From contig OU015525.1 in NCBI GenBank assembly GCA_907165065.1, forward strand, positions 49,423,537 to 49,487,536: 64,000 bases of DNA, read 5' to 3'. A model generated the notes under the pieces. It did not search any database. It was not told the DNA's origin and worked only from the letters and a program-made list of their open reading frames with translations. Position numbers and translations under genes: made by a program. Origin of the DNA: Caprimulgus europaeus (Eukaryota; Chordata; Aves; Caprimulgiformes; Caprimulgidae). Below are positions 30,413-60,777 of the stretch, one piece after another. How positions within the stretch are numbered: position 1 is the stretch's first letter; each line of letters opens with the position of its first letter.

Positions 30413-31198
30413 CTAAAAAGAGCCTGATCTCAATGTTGCAAATTTTTTGGGACATAGTATTTTCATAAAAGCCATTCGAAATTTAACATGACAGAGAGGG
30501 TAGAGAAATGGGTTCAAAGAGGAATTGACCCACAAAAGCCAAAAGGTTATTTCGTACAAGGAGTTATGAACACAGGTTCCTTGGCAGGCCCCACGAATAA
30601 TCATTAGTAAAGTGTATGGAGCCCAGCAAACGGCAAACACGCACACAATTATGGCAAGCGACTTCGCTATTTTCTTGTCCTGCTGCAGTTTTGACCTGGC
30701 CCTTGCACATAAAGAAAGAGATAAGTAATTTTCTGGAGTTACAGAATTGCCTCTGGATGGAGATGAGCTCTCGGTTACCAAAGACTCTTTCTTTGGCCTC
30801 ATGGAGGATGAAACACTGTCCTCTGCTTCAAACGGAGGAGAAAACACTCCTTGCCTCAGCGGGAGGCAAAATCTCCAGGACAGGCTGCCATTCCTTGGAG
30901 GCTCACAGTCCTGCATGCTGCCGTGCCGCTGCCGCCTCTGGATGTTGTGAAAGATGTGCACATTGAAGTAGGTCACCGAGAGCAGTGGCACAAAGAACTC
31001 CAGGGTGGATGCGCACAGGAGGAAGTACCAGTTGTCAAAGAACTCAGCGTAGCACTGGTCTGCTGCTACCACGCTGTGTCCGGCCACGTGCTCCCAAAAG
31101 AGGATTGCTGGGCAGTAGAGGAGGAAGGCAAAGACCCAGATGGCCACCATCTTGATGACAGGATTGGATGTTATTCCCTGCTGGGCTCTGTAAGATAC
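30413..31198 (-). CDS. HRH4: HRH4 copy A exon 3 (TM4 to C-terminus)
   Basis: Starts after a CAG acceptor with the VSYRAQQG segment and encodes residues 151-411: TM4, ECL2 with Cys199, TM5 with Glu217, a long intracellular loop 3 (about 231-325), TM6, TM7 and a short tail ending in GSF. The loop 3 part (about 30698-30870) is strongly diverged from copy B while the flanking transmembrane parts are almost identical. Confidence 0.9.
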   Translation of the reverse strand, partial: VSYRAQQGITSNPVIKMVAIWVFAFLLYCPAILFWEHVAGHSVVAADQCYAEFFDNWYFLLCASTLEFFVPLLSVTYFNVHIFHNIQRRQRHGSMQDCEPPRNGSLSWRFCLPLRQGVFSPPFEAEDSVSSSMRPKKESLVTESSSPSRGNSVTPENYLSLSLCARARSKLQQDKKIAKSLAIIVCVFAVCWAPYTLLMIIRGACQGTCVHNSLYEITFWLLWVNSSLNPFLYPLCHVKFRMAFMKILCPKKFATLRSGSF

Positions 31199-34100
31199 CT
31201 GCAAGGGAAATAAAGAAACAGGTCACACCTGTAGCAACAAGTTTTGGAAGTGACAGAAGTAGCAGGAGAGGAACTTAGCAGAGTGCTTGATAACTTGGAG
31301 CTGCAGCTATGGTGATCAGCTGAAGCTCCCCCAAGCGTGTTTGATTCATCGATGTTGACATGACACCGGGGTGTCTCTCTACAGGTTAATGTAACTGTGC
31401 TAGAGTGCTGGTCCAGGTGATGAAACGTGATCATCCATCGGTACCTAGTCATTTAGTATGCCTTGTTTGAGACATCTGTGGTCTGAAGTGCCAGAGTAAT
31501 TAGCATTTTATAGTTGTTCAGAGCATGACTCCAAACTGCACTGCTTTTTACAGCATTTTACAATCAAATAGGACTATATGCATCACAGTGGTGAACAGAA
31601 AATGTGGCACATATATTTAACCTTTGAGAAAATTGTTTATTACACACTTCGTGAAGAGGTAGGAATACATTCCAGCTCTGCAATGCAGCCTTTAGCTGAT
31701 GAAACTACAAAATCACCCCTTTTCTTCCTTCTCTTCCCACTCCGGGACCAGTATGTATTTTCCACTATATGTTGCAGAACAGATATCTTGTAGCTCACAT
31801 CCTGCTCCATCCCTTTCACAGGATGACAGCCTGAATGTGTAATTTTAGGAGCTTAGACATTCAGTTTAAAATAGGAAAAGTATGAGTTAATGTAATTAAA
31901 GACTATAATACAAATGTCCATAGGTCTTAATTATGTTTGTGCAGGTGCTCTTAATTTTGTAATTTGTAAATGCTGTGTCTTTGACTTCCCAGTGTAACGT
32001 TTCTTACATGCAAAATGCTTCAGTGTTTGATTTCCTGGAATTTTTTCCATAAAATAAAATAGAATCATCAAATGTAAGAAAAATAAAAGGCAAGTGTAAT
32101 AAGGAAGATTAATTATCATTAACAATAATAAAACTGAAATTCCGTCATATGACATTATGTTGACATTCTGACACATCACCAAAGAGCTGGAACCTTTAGC
32201 TCTTCCCAACATTTCCCTGCCACTTGAGCTAACAGAGTGATTAGTGAGAAGTGCTGGTCTCCACCCTCAGCATGAACCAAGATATAAAGTTCACAGAAAG
32301 GGCGTTGGATGCTCTGCAGAGAGCAGAGACATAAACTGCATCTGAAGTTTGGAATTCTGCCCCAGGAGCTGAGAGGAGTTTATTGCCACACGTCCACAGT
32401 CAGCCTCTCCAGTCTGTCCTTTTTCTCACTCTCTGCCTCACTTGTTCTCGCTCCTGATCTTCTCCGGGATCACTTGAGGTCACGTCTCAGGACAAGACAT
32501 CCTCCATGGTGTCATTCATTTCACTGTCCTAGCCCCTCTGCCTTTTCCTTCCATGCCTGATTTTAGGTCCAAACTCAAATCCAGTTTACTTTGAATTTCC
32601 TCTTTCCTTGTACCCTTTTTACCAGCCCCTTTTCACCCTTCAGCATGCTTTCCCTCAAGCAGTAGTACAACAGCAACCTAAGGCAGAAATTTTGAGAAAA
32701 GTCTTGTTTGACTGGCTCTGGGCTGAAACATGCTCAATGCAGAATATTCACCACATCTAGCTGCAAATATCTAACAATCTCCACATGCCAGCATATTTTT
32801 GAGCATATTATCTTGATTAAATCTGGGCTTATACTCATCAACATGGCAAAGGTCAATGAGTATAATCCACAAATGACCTTCTGACAAAATCAGAGAAGCT
32901 AGAAACAGGGTACTTACAGCTTTAGTAACTGACAGGAAACGGTCATAGCTGATAAGAACAATGTTAAATACTGAAGCTGTGCACAGGAGATAGTCCGTAG
33001 CTAGCCAGAGCTTGCAGACGCCTCTTCCCAAGTGCCATTTCCCTGTCAGGCTGTAAGGGATGTAGAGAGGCATGCAGAACGCACCTATGGAAAGCAACCA
33101 CAGAGACACCATGTGGTTCATATGGATTGCAAACAGTACTCCTGGAAGCAGAGAGACACTATTCTGGTGTTTGGCTAAAAAAATACAACTATTAAGGTGA
33201 ATGTGTAATTTACATACAGAAATTCTTACATTCGCATGAAATCTGAAAGTGAGATTCTATGTATTAGATCTTAGTGTATTTGGGTATACTGATTGCTGGG
33301 GATAAGATCGGGACAAATCATCAAAGAAGGATCTACTGAAGAAGAAAATGGCAGTCTAGCCAACTTACAGTAGCTAAAGATACAGAATCAGTGCTGCAGT
33401 GTGTGTGCACTGTGGTTATGCTCTGACATTTAACCTCACTGCTGTGTATCTTCTAGTCTTTGTTTTGTGCTACAGTTTTCCCTCAGATTCATCTACAGAT
33501 GTTGTTAATGTTGGCTGTTAAAGTAAGATCAGTCAGCATTTGTAAGCTACAGAAAATATACAGTCTGCACTGTATCTGGAAACCTCTTCTATCAAAGATA
33601 GAGCAGACACAGCAGAGGTATGAAATCCTCTCCCACTTTGAAGAGATGTTTTAATCTCATGTAGGTTCTTCAGCTGAGATTAACTCCAGAACAATTTTTT
33701 TTTTGTTAGATACATTTGGTTTTTGTCCAGAAGGCCTTCCACTGATGTACTTTCATAATAAAGTCATGTTTGTGTTTTATTTTTAAGCCAACAACTTCTT
33801 CATTTTACCACTAATATTCTTTCAAAAGTATGGTGCAATATCTGATGCTACGTTCCTGAAAAAGCCAACCCACCAGAGATAAATATAAACCTATGTGCAG
33901 TTTCAAGATCCCTTTTAAACTCTTCAGATTAATCTTCTTTAATATATCCATCAAGATCTCAGAAGTTACTGAACATATCCAGGCTGATATGGCTCACCAA
34001 CAATAATCCTCTGGGCAATGAGCTGACAGACTGTTATCAACAGGCAAATGTGCTTTCAATACTGATGGCTTGTTTTAACATATACCTTAAATACAAGCAG

Positions 34101-35985
34101 CATAACTTTTGTACAAAATACTCATCTTTCAGAGTTGCTGGTGACAGCTACAGCTCTTATCAGCTTCAATGGGATCAATGTTTGGCACCATGTCAACAAT
34201 TAATGGCTGCTTTTAGTTATAGATATAAATACAGATGCAAGAACCAAGTTTTAAGCATTTATGTTTGAAACTATTCTCACTTTTACTAATGAGGGTGCAA
34301 AAGACATTAGTCACGTGCATGGAAAGATTAGAGAATTCTAAGAAATTTAAGAAATTTCAGCTTCAGAGAATAAAAGCATTTTCTGACTGATCCCAGAGAC
34401 AAAGTCCTAGATTTACGTGGTCAACATAATACTGATACCAATCGTTTAGTCTTGGCTGATTTAAGACTCCATGAGGCACCAGCCACAAACAAGAACTGAT
34501 GTAGAAGGCAGATATGTAAATCTCTTGACTAAACTATAAGATAAGAGGAGAAACAGACTTTTGCAAAAGAACTGAGCAATGAAATGGCAGCTCTACCACA
34601 TTGTCTGCCTGGAGCAGGACAGCAAAGGCACCAGCACACGCATCATTTGGTTTCTGCCCCATAGGGCGAGACCCAGAATTAGGGACTACAGGTTATAAAT
34701 AGCATAAATTAAGCAAAATCTTAAGGGTTAAACTAATACAATCCACTGCACATCACTGACAAAGGAACGGCAGTTAGTGGGGACAGTACTGCCAAAAGTG
34801 GAGTGAGCCAATGACTGCAATTGCGCTCCTTGTGATCCAGTGAATATTGTTCTCTATCAAGAGAAAGCACTTCTGTGCAGAAATACCTCCTTGCTAGCCT
34901 CAAGTCAAGATGTTTGCTGGAATATCATCTGCCACAGGACGATGGTTTTGTCAGACTTTCTCTGCTGCATGGTCTGTTTCCCTGGCCTGAACCCTGAAGG
35001 ACTGTCACACAAGGCATTCACGTGCCCACCTCCTCGCCTGGCATCACCCACCAGAACTGGATCCATGGCACCTCCAGGGGCCACATCTCCTGAACTTCTG
35101 CAGTGACACTATGGGAAGAGGTGACTAATTTGGAAAACAGATCAGAGATCCCAGCAGGCTGTTTCTGGAATCAAACAAGGCATCTGATCTCTTGCCTGCA
35201 CTGAATGAAGCTGATAAAAAAAGTCATAGTGGTGGAGAGTTGAGTTATAGTGTAATACACGCATAAGCCATTAGTACCATGCAGAGAAGTAATTAATTTA
35301 CCTGGATGTATCACAGCTAGCTGTATAAGAAAACAGTTACACTGTCAAATGTAAAGATATTCTGAAGTGTGTGATCTTACAGGAGGAGCAAAGGGAAATC
35401 ATAAACTGTAGCAAACAATCTCTTTCCTTCAGTAGGTATTCACATAGAATAGGTGCTTCTTTTTTCTGAAGCAACATTAAGTATTTATATGAAAAAAGGA
35501 TTCATTTCTCATTATAACATATTTTGAGACATAATAGGCTGCTAAGATGCTTAATGCAATTTCCACCATTTCTTACCCTTACCCTAGACACACAGCTGGG
35601 AAATTGTTCTCTTAGAAGAAACCACCCAGAAAAAGAAGTCCCCTCGCTTCTCCCCAGATCCCTACAAAACAGATAGTACGCGCCTCCACGGCTGCGACTT
35701 ACCCACTGCAAAGTCAGAAATAGCAAGATTCAGAAAGAAATAGTTACTCCGATGCCTGAGATTTCTGTCCACGATGAAAGCAAGGATCACCAGGGTGTTT
35801 CCAAGGATGGTGACCAGAGCCAGCAACACCATGAGGAAAGCCAGCAGCACCAACACGCCCAGTGAAAACTCAGAGCTCGGTGCCGCTGTGCACAAAGTCT
35901 CGTTGCATGTTCCAGCCGCACGTGGAGTTTCGGCAGTGCCGTTGTGCATGTTGCGTGCCCAGGTCAGTTCAGTCTGGGAAGACAT
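30413..35985 (-). CDS. HRH4: Histamine H4 receptor-like GPCR, copy A (three exons)
   Basis: Exons at 35703-35985, 32918-33084 and 30413-31198 join in phase (1, then 0) into 411 codons plus a TAG stop. The product is a rhodopsin-family aminergic receptor of the plasma membrane, of the H3/H4 type that signals through Gi/o in mammals. Visible landmarks are sequons at N15 and N28, N63 in TM1, D91 in TM2, D125 in TM3 (amine-binding position 3.32), the C118-C199 disulfide pair, DRF at 142-144 in place of the usual DRY, E217 in TM5 (position 5.46, typical of H3/H4), CWAPY at 341-345 in TM6 and NPFLY at 379-383 in TM7. Human H4 is 390 residues. HRH4 is preferred over HRH3 because the neighbour is IMPACT. 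The start at 35985 is chosen because copy B lacks the in-frame ATG two codons upstream. Confidence 0.9.
31199..32917 (-). other. HRH4: HRH4 copy A intron 2
   Basis: A 1.7-kb GT-AG intron. It is unlike the corresponding intron of copy B, even directly beside the exons. A pyrimidine-rich patch at 32395-32650 could hold an old LINE relic, but I could not support it. Confidence 0.7.
32918..33084 (-). CDS. HRH4: HRH4 copy A exon 2 (end of TM2, ECL1, TM3)
   Basis: A 167-base exon with a TAG-type acceptor at 33085-33086 and a GTAAGT donor at 32912-32917. It encodes residues 95-150, including Cys118, the amine-binding Asp125 and the DRF motif. It differs from exon 2 of copy B at one base only, 32981, which is synonymous (Cys129). 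Confidence 0.9.
33085..35702 (-). other. HRH4: HRH4 copy A intron 1
   Basis: A 2.6-kb intron. Its first about 120 bases (35581-35702) are essentially identical to the matching part of copy B (45901-46022), after which similarity fades. No other gene was seen in it. Confidence 0.7.
35703..35985 (-). CDS. HRH4: HRH4 copy A exon 1 (N-terminus, TM1, start of TM2)
   Basis: Encodes residues 1-94 plus the first base of codon 95. The glycosylatable N-terminus is followed by TM1 with the LGN motif and by the LNLAISD segment of TM2. It ends at a GTAAGT donor (35697-35702). An alternative ATG at 35989-35991 would add two residues, but copy B has CTG there. Confidence 0.88.
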
Positions 35986-36018
35986 TCGCATCTGGCAGAT
36001 TTATCCAAAAGGCTGAGA

Positions 36019-37019
36019 GAAGTCTGTCAACAGGATAGGCTGAATACTGACACATCAAAATAAAGGATCATAAAATTTCAAGGCCTGGAGACTCTAACAT
36101 TCCTTTATCTGAATGCACCTATTGGCCTGAAAACAAAAATCTATACAAAAGCCACCCCATAAGCAGCAGTAAGTGCACACTTTAAAATAAATTATCTCTT
36201 TCTCTCCTGAATGCTGATCCTTATCTACTGAGGTCAGAAAAGTTAGTCTGAAAACAACTTTTCACAGTCAAGCAGTTTGCATATTATTGTGTAAGCATTT
36301 TTACACATTGAATTCTGATGAAGCTAAAAACAGATTTCATTTTCACTTCCCCAGTGGTCAACAGGATTTTAATTATTACAAGTGCCTTTCTCTTACAGTA
36401 AAATGTAGGCACTATTGCACTTGCTGTTATACCACTTACTAAATTTTACAGTTAGGGACAGAGATGTATATTTTACAATGCTACTGGTTACAGAGCATTT
36501 AAAACTCAGTTATACACATCAGAAGTCTCACCAATACCTTTTCAGCTCATCCTCATCAGAAGAAGTCTAGCCCTAGGCACAACAAACCAAACACCTGTGC
36601 TTTGGAGGACCTCATAAATGTGTCCCATCTAATCCTCCACTTCACAAATAATTCCAGGTAAGATCCCACTCCTCAAAGTGCCAAACCCTTAGCCTCTGCA
36701 GATGTGAGAAGGCATATCCCTTCCTCATCACAATTTCATGTATTTTGGTAAGAGCGCACAGAAGTTGGCAGGCCATGGCTATGACTCATGCCTGCAGCCC
36801 ACAGACTCTGTAGTGCCACAGCACTCCCTGCAATCGGCTTTTCAGTCTGCGAACGTAGAGCTGGGTGCTTTAGAAGAGGTAGGGCAAAAATAAGGAAAGA
36901 AAGGGCAGAAAGGATGTGAGGAAGAGAGGTGTGGTGCTCTGATCCTGTCTTGGGGAACAAAGGGAAATGTATTGTAAGGAGTAATTAAAGCAAAAACTGT
37001 AGGACAACAGGAACAGAAG
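36019..37019. other. 5' flank of HRH4 copy A
   Basis: AT-rich flank. A patch near 36211-36235 (gatccttatct, then gaggtcag) recurs at 46552-46575 upstream of copy B, showing that the duplication included upstream DNA now diverged. No TATA box or CpG cluster could be assigned. Confidence 0.45.
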
Positions 37020-38610
37020 AGACCTCAGGAATGATAAAACATGGCAAACAGACGCCTGCCCAGGTGCATGTGTAGAAATGCAGCCTGGAGCTTGTGTTCT
37101 TCCAACGCACAGGAGGAACTAGAGCTCCCTGTGCAGTCACAAAGCCACCAGGCTGTTGGAGTAACAGGGATGGTGGGGCAGCTCACACAACTGGAGCGCT
37201 GCAACAGGCAAAAAGAACCTTGTCAGGAAAGACAGGCAGGGAAGATGAGGAGCGGGGATTGTCCACCATGTGCAGAAGCTGGTTGAATGCATGGACCTCT
37301 TCTATGAGATAGACAGTCTGGTTGCAAACTTGCGGGTCAGGGTCAGAGGATGGGCCAGTGACACAGGTCACATAGGGGTGGGAGTGTGTTGCAGATGACC
37401 CTGATCAGGGTAAGGGAGTTGATGAACTCTTCATTAAGCAAATCAAGAAAACTTCTGGCTCACAGACCCTGTTTCTTGTCTATGACTTTAATGTTAATGA
37501 CATCTGCTGGAAGGGCAACACAGCAGGTACAAGCAGTCACCAAGATCCCTGGAGAGTGTCAGGGGCAACTTTCTGATACAAGTACTGAATGGATCAACAG
37601 GCAAGACACACAGCTAGATCAGCTGTTCACTAGTGAAGAGGAGCTGGTTAGGGAGGTGTAATCAATGGCAGCCTTGGTTATAGGGACCATGAGTTAGTGG
37701 AGTTCAAGATTCTAAAGCTGGTGAGGAAAGAGAGTGGCAAAGTACAGACCATGGACTAGAGGTAAGCATGCTTCAGTTTATTCAGGAAAGTAGTAGGTGG
37801 GATCCAATGGGAGGCAGCTCTGGTGTGAAAATATGCTCAGGAAACCTGCAGGCCTTTAAGGACAGCAGCCTCCATGCTGAAGAGAAGGCCACCCCCATTG
37901 TCAAGAAAAGAAGTAGAGGTTATAATGAGACTGGCTAATGAGGGAAGTTACAATGCAAAAAGGCAGCATGAAGGAGTTTGAAGCAGGGACAGGCTTCAAA
38001 GGAGGAATTTAGAAATGTCGCCTGGCCACATAAGCATGATGTTGGGAGAACCAAAGCTCAACTAGAGTTGATGCCTGCAAAGGACATCAAGGACAACATG
38101 AACTTCAGCAGACCCATTAACAGTAAAATACTGAAACATTTTAACAGTTTAAGAGACAAGTAGGCCTGTTGCTGAATGGGACCAGTGATCTAGTGACAGC
38201 AGATGTGGGTAAGGCTGGAGTACCCGATGCTTTCTTTGCTTCAGTCTTCATTAGCCATTAGAGCTCATGGGATGTGATGGGCTACACCCAAGGCTGTTAA
38301 GAGAATCAGCTACCATCCTTGCAAGGCCACTTTCTAACCTCTTTGAAAGGTCATGGAGATGAAGGGAGGTTCCCAATGACTAAAGAAAGGCAAATGTTGC
38401 ACTCATCTTCAAATGATGCCACAAGGACAAAAGGTCAGCCTCTCTGTGGTCCCTGGGAAAGTAATGGAGCAAGTCCTCATGGAAGGAATTTCTGAGACCT
38501 GGAGGGAGGAAAAGGTGACTGGGAACAGGCAAGGGTAAATCATGCCCCTGAGCAACTTGGGTGTCTTCTTTGATAAAATGACTGGATTAGTGGACAAGGA
38601 AAGAGTAGCC
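37020..38610 (+). repeat. Decayed CR1 LINE with endonuclease and reverse-transcriptase remnants
   Basis: Plus-strand frames broken by stops and indels give CR1 parts in the right order. A DFNVNDICWKGNTAG-like endonuclease segment lies near 37480-37530. A GSLGYRDHELVEF-like segment near 37667-37710 has Arg where the catalytic SDH motif has Ser. A linker resembling the CR1 region before the RT is near 38020-38165, FFASVFISH-like text near 38235-38262, GLHPRLLRE-like near 38280-38310, and an RT fingers-like stretch up to about 38600. The first few hundred bases may be older ORF1-like sequence. The copy lies between the two receptor genes and is clearly dead. Confidence 0.7.
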
Positions 38611-41539
38611 ATTTGCTTTTAAAAATTAGGGAATAAATCAAATGTTAAAGTTTGAGTCATAGTCCTTCATACGACTGAGGGAGAAATCTGTGTGGTCACT
38701 CCTTCCTTCCTCCCTGCAGAGGAAAAAACATAGCCTAACACAAAAGAGACAGAGATTAGGACTCATTAGGATTAAATGCTCATCCCAGAAATAAACAAAC
38801 AAACAAACAAACAAAAGATAACACAATTTCTTCCAACACCTATGTTTTATTTGGGTTTTTTTAAGACCCGAGAGGGTAGAGTTAGAAATACTTTGTTATG
38901 GTTTGAGTTGAACCTCACAGAGTCATAGTCCTACTGTCACCATGTATTTACAAGAGTTATTGGACATCTCCAAAGACAGAAGAAAATGCAAGGGCATGAA
39001 ATGGTGAAATGGATGAGTGAATGGATAGAGAGAATTTGCTTAGAAATCACTTTGTCAAGCAAAGTCTATGTGTGTCAGTGCATGAAAGGCACACCCAAGA
39101 ACAAATGCTGAATAAGCATCTTACCATAACCCTGCAAAATGGGAGGAGAATGTCACTTAGGATGCCACCTTGAGCAAGACAGCTCTAATACTGTCAGCAC
39201 AGCAACTGAGTGCTTGGCTTACCCTGGGAGCACTGAGCAAAATTTTCAACAATTAGAAAAATAGAACAAATTTTTCAAATATACAGGAGGGGTGTGGTAA
39301 AACAGTTTGAACACTGTTTTTTATGTTCTTTATTACAAGCACATGGATCTCTAGTAGCTTCACTACTCTGTGTGGTTTCAAATTTTCCGCTCATTGTGCT
39401 CCCTGTCAAACTCTAGTTTTCCCAGAATGAAAAATGTGGATACAGTTTACACATTCTTTAATCATAAAATGCAAACTCAATTTTTATACTAAAAGCATAG
39501 GGACAGAAAAGCAGACAACTCAAATACTTTCCCATTTTGGGCCTACCTACAGTTTCTCTGTTTAACAGATGTTTATTTAGTACACCAACTACTCTATAAA
39601 TATTTTAAAGGAGGGGGGGGATGGTGGTATGTTTCTGTCTGTGTGTGTTTGGGTTTTTTTAAGTGTCACAGGAAAAAAAAAAAACAACGACAAAACAAAA
39701 AACCCCACAAAACCTATGCCAGCCTGTTAGCTCGTGGCAGTGGAAACAGCTGTGCCAAATCAATGACCTCCTCCTGAAGCTGTTATCTCTCTCTTGGCAA
39801 TGAGGCTTACAATCTGTAACACTATCCATGTGAGGCAAGGAAGCATAACTAGAATGAATTGTGAAAGATAATCTTCCAGCAGTGTGAAAACTGGTGAGAG
39901 AAATTTCTGTTCCAGACCTCTGAACAGAATGGCATTTTAGTGCCTTGAAGCCATCAATTTCTGTGCTGTGATGAAGCTGCTTGCATTTGAATTGTGCTTG
40001 CAAAGGAGTACTCTGCTTCTGCAACACTTCTGCAGCCAATTTCAAATTAGATAAAAAGTACTATTGAAATTGACTACTGCTCTTCACTGTTCTGTGCATC
40101 AGACTTCTCCTTCCATATTTTATACATTTCTAGATGTAGACAAAGAGGAAAGAAAATTATAAAAAAGGAGAGAAAAAAAATGTAACCAATGACTCTCACC
40201 CATCCATGAATGCCGCCTGGGTGAGTTGCAGCACCCAACACAAGGTAAGAGAGTTTGGCACATGGAATGGGTTATAACCAAGCTCCATCGCCTTCTCCCA
40301 CACATCGACTCACTCCTTTCAGCACTGCTTATTCAGCTGCTTTTTTATTAACAGCAGCTTAAGACACTCTGTGTAAGCTTTCAGACCTCTGTGAATCCTA
40401 TTTTCAAGCAGCGAATATGGCCCTTGTTCAGTGATAGGAAAAAATCCAGTTTGATACTGGTTCAGTGGCAGAGAAAATCCATATAATGTCACAGTAACAA
40501 GACACAAAGAACTGATCCAGTATAAAAATCACTCTGACAGTTCAAATTTGTTCCAGACATTTTGATGGAATATCTTTGCACTTGTAAAGCTTTACACTCG
40601 AGAGGGTATTGTGTACTTTTGCACAGCCAGCCAAAATCATAAGTCCAGCTTGGACTTTGTATTGCTTGCTCAGCTAATTCAACAGGATCATGTGCCCAGC
40701 CTGGTCTGTCTTTTAGGTAATCAAATAGTGAACAAATCTGGCACTAAATATCAGATAAGTATGACCAAAGAGGCATCCACTGTCAGGCAAAAAGATAACA
40801 AAAGAGTGAAAAGAGTAACAACCATTTATGCCTGTGACAATTTTGATAACCAGTCTCAAAATTCCATTACCATGGAAAATTTCATCCTCTGAAAATCATC
40901 CAGAATTACTAACTATTTGTGCACTGTGTCCTGCAACACCAGGTATGGGCTATAATAAAATTAGAAGAGGAGAGATATGCTGGATTAGGCAGTCCATGCG
41001 CTTGCATATAGCTCACTGAGGGAATTATAATTACAGGGCACTATTTTTTCTTCATGATAGTTTTTAAAATTAAATTATACTGCTCCTGTGAGCACTTAGA
41101 CAAGCTTTCAAAAATCTAGCAGAACTGCTTCTTTACTGATAGCTTTAGGTTCATAAATAGGACATAAATCTTAACTCATAACACAAACAGATTATCTCCC
41201 TTCAATGAACCTCTACAAAGATGTCCATAGCAAAGATCTTTCATAGTACCAGCTCTATATAAAAAAGGTAAAAAAAAAGTACTATAAACCCACAAAACAA
41301 GAACACCCAGCAAAGCTTGTTATTCTTTTTAATGTGCTAGATGGTGTTTAATGTAGCATCATATCAGCTAAAACAAGATCCTGAAAACTAGCAAAATCGG
41401 GGCAAATACATACTTCTGCTGCACTCTGAACCAATGCAATTAATAAACAAAAGTTTTTTCTCCATTTCTGTTGAAGATATATATCCAAAAAAATGCATTA
41501 GAGGGGAAATCTTATCTGTAAGTTATTTATTTTAACTCT
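38611..41539. other. Intergenic DNA between HRH4 copies, low-complexity patches
   Basis: Contains an (AAAC)n microsatellite at 38793-38816 and an A/C-rich patch at about 39672-39715 preceded by T/G-rich text at 39635-39660. It should include the 3' untranslated region of copy B; a minus-strand AATAAA lies at 41526-41531, very close to the stop codon. No additional gene was recognised. Confidence 0.45.
38793..38816. repeat. (AAAC)n microsatellite
   Basis: About six copies of AAAC in an A-rich setting, close to the end of the decayed CR1. Confidence 0.85.
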
Positions 41540-42328
41540 CTAAAAAGAAGGTGTGTTACGTGATCTCAACATTGCAAACTTTTTGGGCCATAGTATTTTC
41601 ATAAAAGCCATTCGAAACCTCATATGACAGAGAGGGTAGAGAAATGGGTTCAAAGAGGAATTGACCCACAAAAGCCAAAAGGTTATTTCATACAAGGAGT
41701 TATGAACACAGGTTCCTTGGCAGGCCCCACGAATAATCATTAGTAGAGTGTATGGAGCCCAGCAAACGGCAAACACGCACACAATTATGGCAAGTGACTT
41801 CGCTATTTTCTTGTCCTGCTGCAGTTTTGACCCAGTCCTTGAACGGAAAGAAACAGAAAAGTCCCTTTTGAGAGCTGTGGGACTGGTTTGTGTTGGAGAT
41901 GGACAGTTAGCCATCACTGCTGGTCTCCATGACCTCGTTAATGATGAAACACTGTCCTCTACTTCTGTGGAAGATGTTCTTGGCCTTGGCAAAAGACAAA
42001 ACCTCCAGGACAGGCTGCCATTCCTTGGAGGCTCACAGTCCTGCGTGCTGCCGTGCCGCTGCCGCCTCTGGATGTTGTGAAAGATGTGCACATTGAAGTA
42101 GGTCACCGAGAGCAGTGGCACAAAGAACTCCAGGGTGGATGCGCACAGGAGGAAGTACCAGTTGTCAAAGAACTCAGCGTAGCACTGGTCTGCTGCTACC
42201 ACGCTGTGTCCGGCCATGTGCTCCCAAAAGAGGATTGCTGGGCAGTAGAGGAGGAAGGCAAAGACCCAGATGGCCACCATCTTGATGACAGGATTGGATG
42301 TTATTCCCTGCTGGGCTCTGTAAGATAC
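41540..42328 (-). CDS. HRH4: HRH4 copy B exon 3 (TM4 to C-terminus)
   Basis: Starts after a CAG acceptor and encodes residues 151-412. The blocks 42014-42328 (TM4 to TM5) and about 41566-41831 (TM6 to TM7) are nearly identical to copy A, whereas about 41832-42000 (intracellular loop 3) is poorly alignable. All conserved TM6 and TM7 motifs are intact. Confidence 0.9.
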   Translation of the reverse strand, partial: VSYRAQQGITSNPVIKMVAIWVFAFLLYCPAILFWEHMAGHSVVAADQCYAEFFDNWYFLLCASTLEFFVPLLSVTYFNVHIFHNIQRRQRHGSTQDCEPPRNGSLSWRFCLLPRPRTSSTEVEDSVSSLTRSWRPAVMANCPSPTQTSPTALKRDFSVSFRSRTGSKLQQDKKIAKSLAIIVCVFAVCWAPYTLLMIIRGACQGTCVHNSLYEITFWLLWVNSSLNPFLYPLCHMRFRMAFMKILWPKKFAMLRSRNTPSF

Positions 42329-45300
42329 CTGTGAAGGAAAAGGACACGTCGCATATTCAGATAACACTTGGGAATAACTATCTCAAAATAACATAAGCAA
42401 GCAAGTCAAATGTATTTGTTCTGTTCTGACACCCAGACATCTATACCATTGTCACTTATGTAAGGTCCTGTTAGTCTTGCTCCTCAAATATTGTAGCTCT
42501 GTGATTGATTTTAATACTTGGGATTGGAGAGGAGCAGAAATTATGATGGCTAAACTACCATTTGGCTTACAGGTGTGAAAAAACATGGCTTGTTTTCATC
42601 ACTACCACAGTAAGGTAGCAATAAGGAATCAGTTTAGCATTCATGAAATGCTCAGGCTCAGAGGAGAGCAAAAGCAGCTGTGGGACTTCCTTCCTGCAGA
42701 GGCAAAAGTAGAAGCCTTCTATATTAAGACCGCCACGTGAGAATGCAAACACAAGACAATAGAATTTTTAATACTGCTTTCTCTTGTCATAGCAGAAAAA
42801 TCTACCCCACACATATGTTTTAACATCCCTTACTTTATTGAAACATTCTTTTTTAGTACTCACTTTACCTTGTAAACAGCTCATTGCATTACTGCAAATC
42901 TTAATGTTTTTATGCCTACCCAGACTGCATTAATTTATTTTACTCTCTAGCCAAAAATATCTACCTTTGAAAAAAATATTAAGAATTAAAATCATGTCAT
43001 CCAAAGTCAGGAAATCTGAGAGCTAAAACCACCCTTGTACTATCCCAGCCAGTATGTGCAATACATGATCCCAGCTTGTGGTCCCCTGCATCTATCACAG
43101 CACAAGATGACCAATTAATGAAAAGCTGGACACTTTTATTTCCTCTATACTATCCAACATTTGTCATCCCAGGCTTTACTCAGATCCAGAACTACTACCT
43201 TCCTCATCAGCTAAACTGTTCATTAGCATAGCACCTACATGCTAAACAAATGTTAATGAATTGTATCTTCACAGCCACATACAACATGAGAGGTATTGTC
43301 CCTATTTTACCATTGAGTAACAGAGCAGTAGTGCAGTGTTACACACAGCATTTTAGATTCTCTGTTTCAAACATCTGTAGCCTAAAAATTCAGACTCCTC
43401 TACATCTTAAAGCATCATATAATCTCAGAGCACAGCTCCAGTTCTGCAATAATGCATTTGCAGCCCTTTGCAAGACCACAAGCACCACAATTTAGTAGGC
43501 AGAAAACAGGAAGCCCAGTACAGATTCACAAAAAGTTAAGTCAGAAATGATTTGCCCCTGGCCACAAGTTGGGTTTGCAGCAGAGGCAGAGGCGGATCCC
43601 AAGTCCATGAGGAAACATTATATCTTTCCTTTGGATAACAGCCCTGTGTTACACACTCCTGGACTCACTTCATCCTAATTACCTAAAGGAGAAAAACAGA
43701 ATGTGATTATGTAAACAAAGACTATCAACAGTGTATAAGAACATGGAGCTCACTTGGGTTGCAGAGGCCTTCTAATTTGCATTTCTCACACTCTGAGCTC
43801 TGCAACTTCAGTAATATTTTTCAATATTACTATTTCTTAAATATGGGGATTTTCATACTTTATTGTTCAGCTTTTTTTAAAAAAAAAAAGATAAAAAGAA
43901 AAAAAGCAGCAACAACTAACCCTAAAACCACAACACTGGGGAAAAAGAGAAAAAGATTAGACACTGTATCAGCATTTCCTAAATGAGACCCTCCCAATCT
44001 AACACAGACCATGTCACTCAAATTATCAGACTCAAAGGCAAAGGATGTTGATCATCTTCTTCCATCTGGACCAAACAACAGACAGACCTTAGAAATGGTG
44101 AATGAAAATATTTACCAATGGATTGTCAGATATTTTCTGAAGCAGAAGAATGATAATACTAAAGAAACACCTCTTACCTCTTTGCATATTTTGATTCATT
44201 CTCCTTTTTGCTTCAAGGGATTAGATTCCACCCAACTGCTTGTTGGCAGCACATGTCAATCACCCCCTGCAGTAATGCAGATCCTCATCTGATCTTCAGT
44301 CAGTCCATCCCACATCTCTATCCATACCCTCTTCTCCTTTTAAAATTTATCCCTAAAATTTATTCAAGCCCTAAGCACATCCTTGACTCAATCTAGTTTT
44401 CATCACTACATTTCTAATGACCAAAGCCCAAGTTTTCCACACATCTACTGCCCTTTACTTACCTTGACCATTCCACCTCCTTTGTACTGTAATTAAATAG
44501 TTTCTAACCCAGGCAGCAGGAGGGAACATTGAAATCACACACAAGGCATTGTCCTATCTCTAAGTCCAAATGCAACACTGAAGCATCAACTTTTCTCCAG
44601 AAAGAAGTGGTAGAGTAACAAAGGACTAGTTAGCTTCTGGTGTTATTGTGAACACTCTATCTTTTAGAGAAATATATAGAGACATATATATATATAAAGA
44701 AATAACTAGAACTATTCTTCTTACAGCTTTAGTAACTGACAGGAAACGGTCATAGCTGATAAGAACAATGTTAAATACTGAAGCTGTACACAGGAGATAG
44801 TCCGTAGCTAGCCAGAGCTTGCAGACGCCTCTTCCCAAGTGCCATTTCCCTGTCAGGCTGTAAGGGATGTAGAGAGGCATGCAGAACGCACCTATGGAAA
44901 GCAACAAAATGCACATGTCAGTCAGCACTGCAGGCAGTGCTTGCGAAGGCAAAGAAACATCTCTGTGGTGTCTGATAAATGAGCAATACTGACTGGAATT
45001 GCCATGTGGAAGGCTTTGTATTCTTACACTAACAATGAACACTTGACCTACAACCTAGCACCAGCAATGTTCTTATAACTAATACCTTTCTGAAAGGTGC
45101 GTCATATTTATTATCATTATTACTTCTCCTGTTTACATCACCTGCTAAAGGAAGGAGCAGCTGACTTTTTTACCTGCTGAAGTAAACATTATTCTGTATT
45201 AAGCTACTGAAATTAAAATAAACATGCTGAGCATGATATCACATGGTATGGAACATCCCTGTGATCAGTTGGGGTCAGCTGTCCCAGCTGTGTCTCCTCT

Positions 45301-46305
45301 CAACTTTTTGTGCTTCCCCAACCTACTCACTGGTGGGGTTGTGTGAGAAGCAGAAAAGGCCTTGACTCCATGTAAGCACTGCTCAGCACTGACAAAAACA
45401 TCTCTGAATCATCAAAAATCTTCCCAGCAAAATCCAAAACATAGCCCCATGCCAGCTACTATGATGAAAATTAACTCTACCCTAGCCAAAACCAGCACAA
45501 TTTGTTATTTTTATTTACATACACAAACACATATTCCTAAGGTAAGACCCTAGATAGAGCATATACAGCAAAATTCTGAAAAATACTGTCATTATTTAGT
45601 TGCAAACTTCAAATGATTATCTGTATTGTGTGAGTGTAGATTGAAATGGAAGATATTAACCACATATGCAACATCTGTCAGATACTATATGCTGTATCTA
45701 GACTTTAGTTAAGACGCTTCACAGGCACCTTCCATTCTTTATTATTTCACATCTATTCACACCCAGCAATATTATTTTCCTGAAGCAATAACATTAAACA
45801 CTATCTGTTTACCTGGCAAAGGATCAGCTTCTTATTGTAATGCATTTCTGAAAAACAGTAGGCTGCTAAAACAATGCAGTTTCCACCATTCCTTACCCTT
45901 ACCCTAGACACACAGCTGGGAAATTGTTCTCTTAGAAGAAACCACCCAGAAAAAGAAGTCCCCTCGCTTCTCCCCAGATCCCTACAAAACAGATAGTACG
46001 CGCCTCCACGGCTGCGACTTACCCACTGCAAAGTCAGAAATAGCAAGATTCAGAAAGAAATAGTTACTCCGATGCCTGAGATTTCTGTCCATGATGAAAG
46101 CAAGGATCACCAGGGTGTTTCCAAGGATGGTGACCAGAGCCAGCAACACCATGAGGAAAGCCAGCAGCACCAACACGCCCAGTGAAAACTCAGAGCTCGG
46201 TGCCGGTGTGCACAAAGTCTCATTGCATGTTCCAGCCGCACGTGGAGTTTCGGCAGTGCCGTTGTGCATGTTGCGTGCCCAGGTCAGTTCAGTCTGGGAA
46301 GACAT
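41540..46305 (-). CDS. HRH4: Histamine H4 receptor-like GPCR, copy B (three exons)
   Basis: Exons at 46023-46305, 44725-44891 and 41540-42328 join in phase into 412 codons plus stop. The architecture matches copy A: the same sequons at N15 and N28, LGN in TM1, Asp125 in TM3, DRF at 142-144, the Cys118-Cys199 pair, Glu217 in TM5, and CWAPY and NPFLY motifs. Replacements against copy A include Ala34 to Pro, Val72 to Met, Val188 to Met in extracellular loop 2, a largely different intracellular loop 3, and a C-terminus ending in NTPSF in place of GSF. The gene lies about 3.8 kb downstream of IMPACT and is followed by copy A in the same direction. Both copies look functional. Which one keeps the ancestral expression cannot be told. 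Confidence 0.9.
42329..44724 (-). other. HRH4: HRH4 copy B intron 2
   Basis: A 2.4-kb intron unlike intron 2 of copy A. It contains an A-rich run near 43875-43910 and a short (AT)n at about 44686-44697. No nested gene or identifiable transposon was seen. Confidence 0.7.
44725..44891 (-). CDS. HRH4: HRH4 copy B exon 2 (end of TM2, ECL1, TM3)
   Basis: A 167-base exon with acceptor AG at 44892-44893 and a GTAAGA donor at 44719-44724. It encodes residues 95-150 with the amine-binding Asp and DRF. It is identical to copy A apart from base 44788, a synonymous change, although the adjoining intron bases differ at once on the donor side and after about ten bases on the acceptor side. Confidence 0.9.
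44892..46022 (-). other. HRH4: HRH4 copy B intron 1
   Basis: A 1.1-kb intron, less than half the length of its counterpart in copy A. It carries an LTR fragment (45225-45499), and the first about 120 bases after the donor are shared with copy A. Confidence 0.7.
45225..45499 (-). mobile_element. Partial avian endogenous retrovirus LTR (old copy)
   Basis: The right end is an exact terminal AAACCAGCACA, so on the minus strand the element begins TGTGCTGGTTTTGG. Internal blocks such as tggtatggaacatccctgtg, gggtcagctgtcccagctgt, gagaagcagaaaagg and ccaaaacatagcccca match the avian LTR style seen at 26.7-27.3 kb but belong to a different and younger-looking subfamily. The far end of the LTR is missing at about 45225. 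It sits in intron 1 of HRH4 copy B in sense orientation. It is noncoding. Confidence 0.7.
46023..46305 (-). CDS. HRH4: HRH4 copy B exon 1 (N-terminus, TM1, start of TM2)
   Basis: A 283-base coding part with a GTAAGT donor at 46017-46022. Only three base differences from copy A exon 1 were counted: two replacements and one synonymous. The first in-frame ATG is at 46303-46305, which fixes the likely start for both copies. Confidence 0.9.
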
Positions 46306-46337
46306 TCGCAGCTGGCAGATTTATCCAAAAGGCTGAG

Positions 46338-49300
46338 ATTCATGAGAGTATTAACAGGATGGACCAAAAATTAAATAAACATTTTAAAAAATTTACTCAG
46401 GAAGAGAAAAATTTAAAAGGTTCTGTTGATAGATAAATCTAGTTTTCCTAAGATTCTTTTAAACTATTCATAACTCTAGAATTACCAGTAAGAAATATGC
46501 AGTTTTTCCAAGGTTATATTTTAAAATGCAAGTTCTTCTTTAGGCAACCTGATCCTTATCTGTGGAGGTCAGGAGGGCTGATTTGAGAATATCTCTAGCT
46601 TTCGCCCCTTCCTGCCTTGTTCCCTCCCTTGCAGAAGTGTTTTGCTTGCTAGCATTTTGGACAGCAACTTTTTCTGGAATTTTTTTCTTAATATTGTACC
46701 TATCCTCATAAGAATTTCAACTACTTTCTCATTTCATTCTTGTTTATCTAGTATCTTTGTATTTCATAAAGTCTATGGTCCCTCCCTATTGTGTTATATC
46801 TTTTTGTTGGTCAAAGGCATGGTCAGCTTTGTTGCTGTTGTTCCTCTTTCTGTGGATCCCAGGGCTGAAAACTGATACGCTCTAAGTAAGCATATATACA
46901 TATATATATTTTTACTAGCCAGAGCAGTTAACCAGTAATAGTCCAGCTCTCAGAGATCATTTGCAAAACTCCCACTGAAACTAGTTTCAAAACTCTTACC
47001 AGCACTCTCTGTGACACAGCATCAGCTGCTGCCGACCCAGAACCAAGGAATGAAATACTGACTTCCCAAATGTGAATGAGCTTGGCAATTAACTTTAATA
47101 GGACTAGGCTTTTCTTTCCAAATTAGTGGGAAAAATCCTGTGTCTTCCACAAGTGCTTATATTTTCTATGAGTAATGAAGCCACTTGCAGAGAGCTGTGA
47201 GTATTCCACAGTTGTAAAAATTCAATCGTTTTTATTACGTGTTCTAAAAACACTTTGGTGTCTTATTTTAGATACTTAAATTTGAAAAATGTTGGCTGTC
47301 ATCTCTGTGCTTCTGTTGTGGGAACAAATTAATTAGCATGACAAGTGTGCTTACTAAATGTTTGAATGGCAGCAGTATAAAAAATGCAAAACTTTATTAT
47401 GCATACTAATATCTTCACAGCTCACCTGCCCATTACTGCTTTAAGCTAGCTTTCATTTCCAGGTAATGCTGGAAATATAGAAAAAACACTTTGGCAACAA
47501 CTACTAAGTAATACCACTAGCTTGCTTCTGCTAGCAGTACTGAAGCTGATCTACATTAAATTTTTGAGGTCCAAGCTATTTACCTTGTGGTTGAAAAGAA
47601 AACAAATGAGTGAACAAACGTGAGGTCAAATTAAGGGTTCAGCCAAGTCTGTATCCTGTCTCAACTGCCTGTAGCCTAAGGAAGAGTATAAGGACATGGC
47701 AAAATATACTGCTGGTGTGCTCCCTATGCCTCCAGTGATGTGTGCCTCCTTGAAGTATAGGTAATAATAAACGCAATAATCCCAGGTTCTTTAGGCCATG
47801 AGGTATGCTGAGGCATCGCTCTCAAAGGAAAGGACAAAATCCTGCATTGCAGATCTCTTCTGGAAAGCCACATGAAAACTTGTTCTTAGAATAAAGGAAG
47901 TTTAAGCAGGAAATGCTTACAAACAAAAATAGGAAGAGAAAGCAACTTCTCTAACCAAAAGTGGCCACAGGACAGCTAGCCAGCACTTCACATTCTCTGA
48001 AAGAAATGGCATGAAAATACATATTTCTACTTTGATGGTCTGTTTCCAGCCCTTTTAAGAGATAGGGGATTCATTTTGCTCACTGATTGGATGACCTATA
48101 TGGTCTATTTCATTTATGCAGCAAGCAGTTATCAAAAACTTGTTTCTTCCATTTTGGAGTTTTAGTTTTTACTAACTCACAACACTGAAACATGAGATTC
48201 TTGCAGACAAAGATCAGTATTTTCTGGAAAACAAACAAACAAAAAAAACCCCAACAACAAACCAGTAATAAAAATAATCAGACACCTAGCTTTCACATAC
48301 CTCAGACTGAACACCCAAAAGTTCAGACTTTCAGAATTACTTGTTGATTCTCAGCATTCAAATTTAAAGGATGCTTTTGGGAAAAGAACATGCATTACCA
48401 CGAGTGGAACTGAATCTTGAGCAGCTGTAGCACACCATCTTGCAATTTACCCGCTTCCCATACTAAGTAATTGCTACACTTTCAACCTTTCATAAAGCAA
48501 CAGAAACTTTGGAACACTTAAGAGTACTGGGAGAGAACAGCAAAATAAAAGCCTATCAATAAGATAGTCAAAATATGAACGAGAAATACTTGTATGACCC
48601 AAAAAATGCAAGACTACTACATATAGTAATATACAGACCTCCCACCCTAGGACGAGTGCTATTTATTACAAGTACAGATGCTAAGGCTGAACCCGAAAGA
48701 GCTTTACTATGCAGAGAGAGTAATATAACTGTGTAATTTTTTTTCAATAAATCAATGCAGGGTCTATCTGCCAGGGAATTGGTGGCAATTTTCTTTTTAA
48801 TCATTTATTTTAGTAGTACTTTTCGAGTTATTGAAAATCTGTTGCTATATGAAACTCTGGAGTAGTTACTTTGATTAGATGAAGTTTGCCTTGGGAAAAG
48901 TTTTTCTGAGGTACTCCTACTGGAGAACTGTAATGAACACTTCAGTGTAAGAACACATTGGCAAAAACATATGTACTGAACTGGTGGTTAAATAAGCTAC
49001 ACATAACACCTTTAAACTATGCACATGCCACTAGAGAAATGTCATTAAAAATAGTCACAGCTCTGACATTACTATATGAGAAAACTATATAAGGTGTACC
49101 TGACCCAAGAAAGCAGCTGTGACTCAGCTAGTAATGAAGAGATCACAAAGTTTAGAAATTAACTTGAGGAAAAAAAGAAAAAAACCCAACAGATCATCAT
49201 CCTCCCCAAGTGGAAGATCTCAAGGGAATGTTAAAAAATTATTTAAATTTAATCTAAATAGCAATATGACAATTAACTGACCAACAGTCCTGTTAATTTT

Positions 49301-50122: not shown

Positions 50123-50194
50123 TTAGTCTTCTGTTCTTTTCTTGTTGTCTTTCCTTATCTTTTTGCTCTTTCCTGCTTGTTTAGATGACTCCTC
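50123..50194 (-). CDS. IMPACT: IMPACT last coding exon
   Basis: A 72-base exon starting [12 protein letters not shown] and ending in a Lys/Arg-rich tail with a TAA stop at 50123-50125. The basic tail and the EESSK start match mammalian IMPACT C-termini as I recall them. Confidence 0.9.
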   Translation of the reverse strand, partial: EESSKQAGKSKKIRKDNKKRTED

Positions 50195-59100: not shown

Positions 59101-60730
59101 AAACATACTGTAAATAATTATTATATGGCTGTATTAGTAATGAACCTCCAGGACAGACATCTTAGAGCTAAGCAAAAGCTTATCCTTTTCCCTGTTGTAG
59201 CTTCTGAGCGTTTTTGGTTTTTGTTGTTGTTATTTTTTTCCTCCTGTTCACCTCTCTATTATTTCTTATTTAGGGAACTAAGGGATGCAACTCTCTACAT
59301 GTCAGTAAGGGATCTGCTCATAAAAGACACAAGATGCTTAAACAACAGATCAGATTAGTCCCATCTTACTAAATCAATTTTAAGTCCAAGAACCATATAC
59401 ATTTTAAATGTCAGAATAAGACAAACCAAGAAAAGGGAAAGCAAATGGTACCAAACATAGCCTGCTACTTGAAATATACTGATTCTGCTATGTAAGGAAC
59501 TACAGTATTATTCTGGCTATCATTACTGAAAACTACATTAGAAGTTAATTTCTACTATTAAAAATACTCAATAAAGGAATGTACATGGTAACCTGTGTAT
59601 TGTCTTAAAATACTGATTAATATAATTGCAGCATACAGATTATGCAGATAAAAGTATTATGGGCAGGCAGTAATCTCTTCAGATGGTAAAGAAGCTAGCT
59701 TTCACTACGAGTGCACTGTTAACTCCATTCCTCACCTCTTCTGGCTTGCCTTCAGAAAAATGAGTCCATACCACAGCAAAGCTTCCCTGTAGTCTGAAGA
59801 CCAATCACCTGACACTGTACAGCAACACTCTGTGAAACAAGATGGATTTGATACTTGGGGAACTGCTTTATCTTTATACTAACTACATACAAATAAGTCT
59901 TGACTGGCAACTCCTAGGTTTGTTGAGTATATGTTGTCTTTTAAAAAAAGTCATGAAAGAAGAGATTAAGAACATCTTTGCATGTAAAAGGGATATTATT
60001 AACCTGCTTTAAGTGAATATTATTTCTTGATACAGACCTGCCTTTTGGAAACCTGTGTCTGCAGGTACAGAAATCCTTGTAAGTAGGAACAATCTTACTC
60101 ATAGATCATGATAAAAAAGCAAGAGGTTTTTTTAAATGAGAAAAGGACATTGAGCCAATTATTCCAATTTCTTCCCTTTCTAAAGCAGCACAGTTCAAAG
60201 AGACTCACAGTTCATAGGGACTAAGCACAGCTAAGAAAACCCCTGAAGTGCAGTGCAAGTTTAATGAAAATGGTAATGTACTGAGTATTTTAAAACACTG
60301 AGTTATTCCACATTAACCTAATGAATAAAATTACTTTAACTTTGCAAGAAGTAAAAGAATAGCTCAAAAAGATGAAAGTGTATTCAAAAAAGCCCAAGCT
60401 GTATCCCGACAGAGAAAAATAAGATAGATGACAAGACAGATGTGAAAAGCACAGTATATTTCTGAGGGTGTAAAAATAAAATTTAATTTTTTTTTTTCAA
60501 ACACATGAGAAGCTGAAGCTTACCAGAGATCTGTACTACCAGAAGATAAATATAATATATGCAATAAAAAAGAATCACTTGATGAAGATATAGTTGTAGC
60601 ACAAAAACCTAAATGAATGTACAGTATTTATGAACTTAAAAGGTCAGGCAAGGATGATATAGTGGAGCTTTATCACAGAATAAGATTGAGCAAGCTGTTA
60701 AAATGAATAGAAACAAATCATCAAAACCAG

Positions 60731-60777
<47 letters not shown>

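Follow-up and report, generated by a model that had tools for sequence, protein, structure and literature searches.

Two sets of paired receptor genes invite comparison with the locus described here: the TLRs, whose C-terminal signalling end is the TIR domain, and CCR2 and CCR5, which are neighbouring genes. Avian TLR2A/TLR2B and TLR1A/TLR1B are described as tandem pairs that are homogenised within species by gene conversion (PMC3125219, PMC8788240), and in avian TLR2 conversion is reported to have affected both terminal parts, N and C, but to have left between them a central region with higher conservation among orthologs (PMC3125219). In mammals, repeated and independent conversion has been described for CCR2/CCR5, and the paralogs of one bat group are reported to cluster by species (PMC8877049). 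A literature search of titles and the beginnings of abstracts, with most subscription papers outside its scope, returned no report of an HRH4 pair or of its conversion in birds.

Here we characterize a stretch of 64,000 nt from Caprimulgus europaeus (the window, at its full length) that holds two histamine H3/H4-class receptor genes, copies A and B. Judged by their sequences, the two genes undergo concerted evolution from which loop 3 and, less clearly, the tail are exempt. Among known cases, avian TLR2A/TLR2B comes closest. As far as the TLR2 and TLR1 pairs are described in the reports above, they share with the present genes a tandem arrangement in birds, homogenisation within species and a region-wise conflict between paralog and ortholog trees. 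The difference lies in what was spared. In avian TLR2, as reported, the signalling C-terminal end was converted and part of the ectodomain escaped, whereas in the window pair it is the ligand-binding core that was homogenised and a cytoplasmic loop that was spared, which is roughly, though not exactly, the mirror image. CCR2/CCR5 resemble our genes in being a GPCR gene pair under repeated gene conversion, but they are chemokine receptors, and the accessible text of the report on them mentions no lasting protected island in loop 3 (PMC8877049).

Results

The receptor genes are complete, have three exons each and lie head to tail on the minus strand, adjoining IMPACT. Copy A encodes 411 aa in exons at 35985-35703 (N-terminus to TM2), 33084-32918 (TM2-TM3, with D3.32 and DRF) and 31198-30413 (TM4 to the stop codon). 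Copy B encodes 412 aa in exons at 46305-46023, 44891-44725 and 42328-41540. Exons 1 and 3 of both copies were assigned by gene model and Pfam, and exon 2 by gene model and motifs. In exon 1 of copy A the shared frame opens at the first ATG (MSSQ...), and a second in-frame ATG follows 12 codons downstream. All four introns have GT...AG ends, and both reading frames are open. The loop-3 island, as we call the divergent segment discussed below, was placed by hand calculation from the exon ends at 30695-30805 of the minus strand in copy A (codons 282-318, RPKKES..SVTPEN type) and at 41831-41941 of the same strand in copy B (codons 280-316 of B, RSWRPAV..SPT type). Upstream of copy B, also on the minus strand, the 3′ part of IMPACT (50129-62512) marks the HRH4 locus. 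Its exons were matched at 62512-62438, 56263-56186, 54626-54513, 51642-51550 and 50194-50129 (best E 2e-18) with a human IMPACT query. Pfam recognized UPF0029 in two of three IMPACT pieces, with E values of 0.0024 and 1.3e-5 that both fall below the curated cut-off, and gave no match for the shortest of the three. The gene models and the IMPACT exon matches thus confirm what the initial annotation had described, namely two complete three-exon genes arranged head to tail beside IMPACT.

Both copies carry the motifs DYLLC, YDRF, LEFFVP, CWAPY and NPFLY, in which we take the acidic residues of DYLLC and LEFFVP to be D3.32 and E5.46; the earlier statement that the key aminergic residues are kept in both copies therefore holds. 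Pfam assigned exons 1 and 3 of each copy to the family 7tm_1, exon 1 barely at the curated cut-off. Human HRH4 lies beside IMPACT and has three coding exons, HRH3 is not the IMPACT-linked locus, and HRH4 is, to our knowledge, single copy in mammals. The window genes share with HRH4 the aminergic motifs and the place beside IMPACT, and chicken HRH4 is likewise reported to adjoin IMPACT, on chromosome 2 (PMC8424881). By sequence, however, HRH3 is the best match. Among solved structures, H3 histamine receptors (PDB 8yuu, 7f61 and others) scored first and H4 receptors (PDB 8jxt, 7yfc, 8hn8 and others) next, copy B scoring 418 bits to H3 vs. 297 bits to H4. In comparisons with PDB chain sequences, the core of the window genes is 65% identical to H3 and merely 55% to H4, H3 and H4 being 50% identical to one another; greater likeness to mammalian H4 than to H3, which was an expectation and not a definition, was thus not found. 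Additionally, the window genes have Tyr, Met and Leu, the letters of H3, at three pocket positions (4.57, 6.55 and 7.42) that presumably separate H3 from H4 pockets. The name HRH4 given to these genes initially is therefore upheld by position and not by core sequence. Because the core is closer to H3 than to H4 despite the linkage to IMPACT, we refer to the window genes as H3/H4-class receptors at the HRH4 locus. Judging solely by the conserved pocket residues, both copies would be expected to bind and respond to histamine.

At the DNA level, copies A and B form a mosaic. Blastn joined them in tracts of 790, 525, and 186 bp with 88.7, 95.0, and 99.5% identity, far above chance, and the alignable A/B DNA in the window consists of exons and short flanks only. 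On the minus strand, the tract around exon 1 (35495-36018 in copy A, 45818-46338 in copy B) comprises 33 bp upstream, exon 1 in full and the beginning of intron 1, where identity stays near 100% to about +130 bp and fades by about +210 to +230 bp. The tract around exon 2 (32913-33098 in copy A, 44720-44905 in copy B, same strand), which is the 186-bp tract of 99.5% identity, includes 14 and 5 bp of intron, and the introns on either side of it were not aligned by blastn. The bulk of the intron sequence is unalignable between the copies. Two stretches of intron 2 and 300 bp upstream retain just 57-62% identity, indicating that the duplication is old.

Core codons of A and B are 98.5-99.2% identical in DNA, with differences at 1 of 156 fourfold sites and 4 of 324 third positions, whereas codons 259-318 of loop 3 differ at 22 of 58 (Fisher p 1.8e-16). 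Correspondingly, dS between the copies is 0.01 in codons 1-258, 0.07 in codons 319-384 and 0.5 in the island, for which the full estimates are dN 0.69 and dS 0.51. Homogenisation of silent and non-coding positions is therefore visible in the window, both at the fourfold sites and at the start of intron 1; this silent-site evidence comes from the window bird alone, the other species having been compared as proteins. GC3 is 0.62-0.63 in the core vs. 0.35-0.36 in loop 3 and tail (p ~1e-5 per copy), as GC-biased conversion would give, but exon GC3 often exceeds that of loops and introns for other reasons. For the window pair alone, the longest identical A/B run was 174, which lies within the range of 10,000 shuffles (mean 68, maximum 219); the case for conversion is therefore built on the comparisons by region and between species.

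Proteins of 19 species were then compared by region, copy A being counted as closer to its own copy B when it exceeded the mean of the A orthologs. Identity within species was 0.98 in the N-terminus vs. 0.58-0.59 between orthologs (own copy closer in 10 of the 10 species with data), 0.94 vs. 0.88-0.89 in TM1-5 (19/19), 0.90 vs. 0.72-0.77 in the first part of loop 3 (17/19), and 0.93 vs. 0.87-0.89 in TM6-7 (16/19). The relation is reversed in the 37-residue island, at 0.29 within species vs. 0.64-0.74 between orthologs (0/19), and in the tail, at 0.76 vs. 0.78-0.88 (1/12). The island of copy A is unlike that of copy B in all 19 species. Its edge is sharp, since within-species identity falls from 0.94 at residue 281 to 0.06 at residue 282 when 18 species are pooled in one profile. 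In some birds, the window bird included, divergence between A and B starts ahead of residue 282. Across 18 species, residues 286, 287, 290, and 297 are identical in all pairs of A islands, and residues 287, 289, and 306 of the B islands stand at 0.89. Taken as a whole, island orthologs (A-A 0.74, B-B 0.64) show no higher conservation than the initial part of loop 3 (0.72 and 0.77), so selection on the island is unproved. That paralogs of one species exceed orthologs holds against mean orthologs, with exceptions in the trees for passerines and Athene; indeed, Athene A is 0.926 identical to its own B and 0.965 to window A, and an ortholog can thus outscore the paralog of the same species. A low-confidence AlphaFold model of Athene noctua A, built together with 54 relatives (mean pLDDT 43), is compatible with helices in the core and a loop 3 that lacks structure, but is too poor to show more.

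The trees inferred from core and island sequences conflict. In the core tree, A and B of the same species are sisters in 14 of 19 species, and a single A clade is rejected (lnL difference 527.6, AU p 2e-56). In the island tree, all 19 A sequences form one group and all 19 B sequences the other, with support of 100/99. When 126 of 130 rows were used, the longest internal branch in the island tree parted 71 A from 55 B (SH-aLRT 96), the two groups being named from that same branch; when rows were typed by mean identity instead, 8 of the 130 stayed unclear. Both island trees mark the island as an unconverted region that keeps the older, paralog-wise tree. In the core tree, the A cores and B cores of the four passerines group separately and the two Athene copies are not sisters, which indicates that conversion is not equally recent in all birds. 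In the core tree of 126 rows, A and B labels remained more clustered than in shuffles, with 30 changes vs. an average of 41 (none of 500 shuffles reached so low a value), which likewise speaks against complete homogenisation of the core.

Among the matches listed, both types were present in protein records of 18 other birds, including kiwi and a tinamou, and they coexist within single species in palaeognaths as well as Neoaves. Among the records listed, Galliformes have both loop-3 types, but in different species, and the Anseriformes records that carry a species name are all of type B. Since both types coexist in 18 other birds, palaeognaths included, the sequences place the duplication before crown birds. 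This result does not support the suggestion that the expansion may be specific to one bird lineage; a genuine tandem duplication with both copies intact is supported. Each of the 18 pairs consists of one A-type and one B-type record chosen among the matches listed, so a bird with a converted island would escape notice. A third copy was absent from the listed bird records, which are clustered at 90% identity. Crocodiles and turtles were absent from the best 120 of 1369 matches (birds, other records, a lungfish and a tree shrew) to a composite query in which bird residues were pulled towards states shared by H3 and H4 and the island was masked.

Discussion

Between the two copies of one bird, the exons that encode the extracellular N-terminus and the seven-helix core resemble each other far more closely than expected from the age of the pair. 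These data very probably reflect an ancient tandem pair whose exons have been homogenised by recurrent conversion and whose island escaped by divergence and/or selection. A tandem H3/H4-class pair would have arisen at the HRH4 locus before the crown-bird radiation, and repeated interlocus gene conversion would have overwritten the exons wherever the copies remained similar. Conversion of the island would have been blocked by its divergence and/or purged by selection. Since one shared tract enters intron 1, conversion presumably acts on DNA; cDNA-mediated conversion is disfavoured, as that tract extends at least 130 bp into the intron.

The near-identity of the core codons could also mean that the copies are simply young, the product of a recent lineage-specific tandem duplication as the initial annotation had it. 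This is very unlikely and was rejected, since silent sites are nearly identical even though most of the intron sequence cannot be aligned, and since 18 other birds, among them palaeognaths, have both of these island types together and records of fowl and waterfowl show them singly. Least credible of all is a false haplotype duplication in the assembly; cores as similar as these would be expected from it, but introns and loop 3 differ strongly, an argument already made against such an artefact and strengthened by the mostly unalignable introns. Moreover, equal contig values place the A and B records on the same contig in 10 of the 18 other species, a placement deduced from the listed value, which is the longest contig of a cluster. 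Two of these ten, Colius and Phaethon, have contigs of about 52 and 71 kb, and the two records of Tinamus guttatus would likewise lie on one contig of 143 kb. On these grounds an assembly artefact was rejected. Strong purifying selection on protein and codons, with no conversion at all, would be in keeping with a core that is conserved among species (0.87-0.89), but there is hardly any chance that it accounts for the N-terminus, which is divergent between species and near-identical within them and hence cannot be explained by selection for one sequence. About 130 bp of intron 1 are also near 100% identical in the window, and pure purifying selection was rejected for these two reasons. Another process that makes tandem genes alike and may yield hybrids is repeated unequal crossing-over, in which hybrid genes are born and lost, and a fused 652-aa model in Chloebia indicates that gene models at the locus can at least join. 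We regard it as improbable, since it would drag introns and flanks along, whereas in the window short tracts such as that of exon 2 sit between non-matching introns, and no third copy was seen among the listed records.

The preferred reading, conversion that spares the island, leaves two accounts of why the island is spared. Early divergence could by itself form a neutral barrier to its conversion, the two loops being functionally alike. Conversion needs local similarity, and equally diverged introns are likewise untouched; in addition, dN and dS between the window copies in the island give no sign of constraint, and the conservation of island orthologs does not exceed that of the initial part of loop 3. 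The residues fixed within each type speak against such a barrier, which we consider possible but rather doubtful. Alternatively, birds may have kept, from before their crown radiation onwards, a pair of same-pocket receptors with two loop-3 cassettes, in which conversion re-synchronises the sensor and selection vetoes conversion of the cassette. This we advance tentatively, as a proposal with a little under an even chance of being correct. The two loop forms would couple to, or be regulated by, different intracellular partners, and the outcome would be two receptors with one common histamine pocket and two distinct cytoplasmic regulatory loops.

The core sites at which A and B of Athene noctua differ bear on the direction of conversion. 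At 14 of these 20 sites both window copies have the residue of Athene A and at 3 that of Athene B, whereas they are split at 2 and match neither at 1; at all seven such sites in residues 106-135, within exon 2, they agree with Athene A. Provided that the window bird and owls are close, this suggests that exon 2 was copied from A to B. In the 126-row tree, however, a shearwater and an eagle are about as near to the window as owls are, and we therefore claim no direction for the last conversion.

Some gene models at the bird HRH4 locus are fused or misnamed, and expression, genotyping and drug data for bird HRH4 may mix two genes. If the loops signal differently, the locus would amount to an experiment of evolution, carried out again and again in many birds, in which a single GPCR loop is set apart from the rest of the receptor. 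The role of loop 3 in a histamine receptor would then become directly testable, as would the ability of selection to hold a short segment against ongoing gene conversion. If true, the pair would be a natural, genome-maintained set of receptors with the same input and two outputs.

Results

The window holds two complete three-exon receptor genes downstream of IMPACT on the minus strand, copy B (41540-46305; 412 aa) and copy A (30413-35985; 411 aa). The initial annotation had proposed two complete HRH4-like genes beside IMPACT, and this was borne out by the exons, open reading frames, canonical splice sites and retained ligand and activation motifs of both copies. A stretch of human IMPACT served as the query that placed this gene; of three pieces compared with Pfam, two matched UPF0029, though short of the curated cut-off, and the third had no match. 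Within an IMPACT intron (56335-57912, plus strand), reverse-transcriptase-like ORFs are interrupted by a stop at ~57363; we assign them to a CR1-type LINE.

Similarity between the copies is a patchwork. BLAST of A against B returned only three matching blocks: exon 1 plus a little flanking sequence on each side, exon 2 (186 bp, 99.5% identity, surrounding introns unaligned by blastn) and exon 3. The introns measure 2618 and 1719 bp in copy A and 1131 and 2396 bp in copy B. In a permissive search, intron 1 aligned at 87% identity over its initial 230 bp, and a single doubtful 30-bp match lay deeper in it (E 0.086). The same search aligned two stretches of intron 2 in colinear order (57 and 62%) and ~300 bp upstream of the genes (60%); downstream it found no match. 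Only 6/774 nucleotides differ in codons 1-258 and 3/198 in codons 319-384, with 1/156 fourfold sites differing over both segments, vs. 66/174 in loop 3 codons 259-318 (58 codons aligned) and 11/81 in the tail. Such likeness at silent sites, set between introns so unlike, is the signature of gene conversion acting on an ancient pair; this comparison concerns the DNA of one bird, and other birds were compared as proteins.

Among birds, the receptor pair is both ancient and widely distributed. Protein searches with copies B and A (best 120 of 1411 and best 120 of 1409 matches, respectively) yielded 128 different records; the species-named records in these lists were all birds, and no non-bird reptile was among the matches listed. 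Among those matches, 18 named species other than the window bird offered one A-type and one B-type record each, and the two show a same-sized contig in 10 species (Podargus, Phalacrocorax, Apus, Calidris, Athene noctua, Passer, Neopsephotus, Phaethon, Colius, and Chaetura). The 18 include the palaeognaths kiwi (Apteryx, whose A and B records are two database entries, possibly from different assemblies) and tinamou (Nothoprocta). A second tinamou, Tinamus, was left out of the counts; its A-type and B-type records (P0126, P0130; B by eye) share one 143-kb contig size. A-type records were also seen in turkey and pheasant, and B-type records in guineafowl, quail, swan, and merganser. The window copies group among Neoaves in both the 19-species and 126-row trees.

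The records and the window pair made 130 rows, of which four protein records with too little of the island, the 37-residue segment of intracellular loop 3, were dropped (P0001, P0078, P0089, P0111). In the island tree of the remaining 126 rows, the longest inner branch separates 71 A from 55 B (SH-aLRT 96). When rows were typed instead by their mean identity to reference islands, 8/130 stayed unclear: the dropped four, plus guineafowl, quail and two tinamou records that the tree places in B.

Core and island have conflicting histories. The core tree covers 19 species (38 rows, 284 columns) and makes the two copies of one species sisters in 14/19, the exceptions being Athene and four passerines; forcing A into one group lowers the log-likelihood by 527.6 (AU p 2e-56). 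In the island tree (19 species, 40 columns), A forms one group and B another (100/99). When copy A was compared with its own B and with the mean A ortholog in species with data, it was nearer its own B in the N-terminus (10/10), TM1-5 (19/19), the first part of loop 3 (17/19) and TM6-7 (16/19), vs. 0/19 in the island and 1/12 in the tail. The N-terminus is the most telling region, with identity of 0.98 between one bird's copies vs. 0.58-0.59 from bird to bird. In the profile pooled from 18 species, the island has a sharp start, between residues 281 and 282, and an end near 318. The window's divergent block opens sooner, around codon 263, and silent changes precede it at 259, 261, and 262; some other birds likewise diverge ahead of residue 282. 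The 126-row core tree has 30 type changes, below all 500 shuffles (mean 41), indicating that homogenisation is nowhere near finished and is not of one age in all birds. The A and B cores of the four passerines fall in separate groups, which would fit a slowing or a halt of conversion in the ancestor of these four.

Discussion

The bird HRH4 pair is an old duplication undergoing region-wise concerted evolution. Interlocus gene conversion probably homogenises copies A and B at the DNA level, since one shared tract enters intron 1 and the converted part has elevated GC3; it would be confined to exons because only these remain similar enough. Avian TLR2A/TLR2B have a like layout, with converted ends flanking a central region that keeps orthology, and CCR2/CCR5 offer a GPCR precedent for conversion in a receptor pair (PMC3125219; PMC8877049). 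The kind of phenomenon is thus already known. Searches of titles and abstract openings, with subscription journals mostly outside, found no report of the bird HRH4 pair, its age or its protected island.

By position the genes are HRH4, as chicken HRH4 (~103.07 Mb) is likewise reported beside IMPACT (103.03-103.05 Mb) on chromosome 2 (PMC8424881). In chicken, linear as well as circular HRH4 RNA has been quantified across seven tissues, and two copies go unmentioned in the available part of that report (PMC6171863). Core identity, with letters from PDB constructs, is 65% to the H3 vs. 55% to the H4 receptor, and many matching records carry H3-like names; we class the genes as histamine receptors of the H3/H4 class at the HRH4 locus. 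Public gene models at this locus are confused: Athene noctua record P0016, a B-type receptor, is called 'protein IMPACT isoform X3', and Chloebia gouldiae record P0001 (652 aa) joins two receptor copies. A lungfish model (Protopterus annectens P0129, 705 aa) joins two H3/H4-like seven-helix halves, which suggests that this species has a tandem pair as well, one that may have arisen independently.

At three pocket positions that we take to tell H3 from H4 receptors, both copies carry the H3 residue (30413-31198, 41540-42328), and H4-selective drugs might fail on the bird receptors.

In the window, the loop form reads RPKKESLVTESSSPSRGNSVTPEN in copy A and TRSWRPAVMANCPSPTQTSPTALKRD in copy B. 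Each type has some fixed residues in the 18-species profile, and, read from the sequence letters, the two forms carry different basic and proline-directed Ser/Thr sites. Whether selection preserves these two loop-3 cassettes is, in our judgment, evenly balanced; a neutral barrier to conversion may possibly account for the island's persistence. Loop 3 of class A receptors touches G proteins, kinases, and arrestins, so the natural hypothesis is that the two loop forms would provide two wirings of a single sensor.
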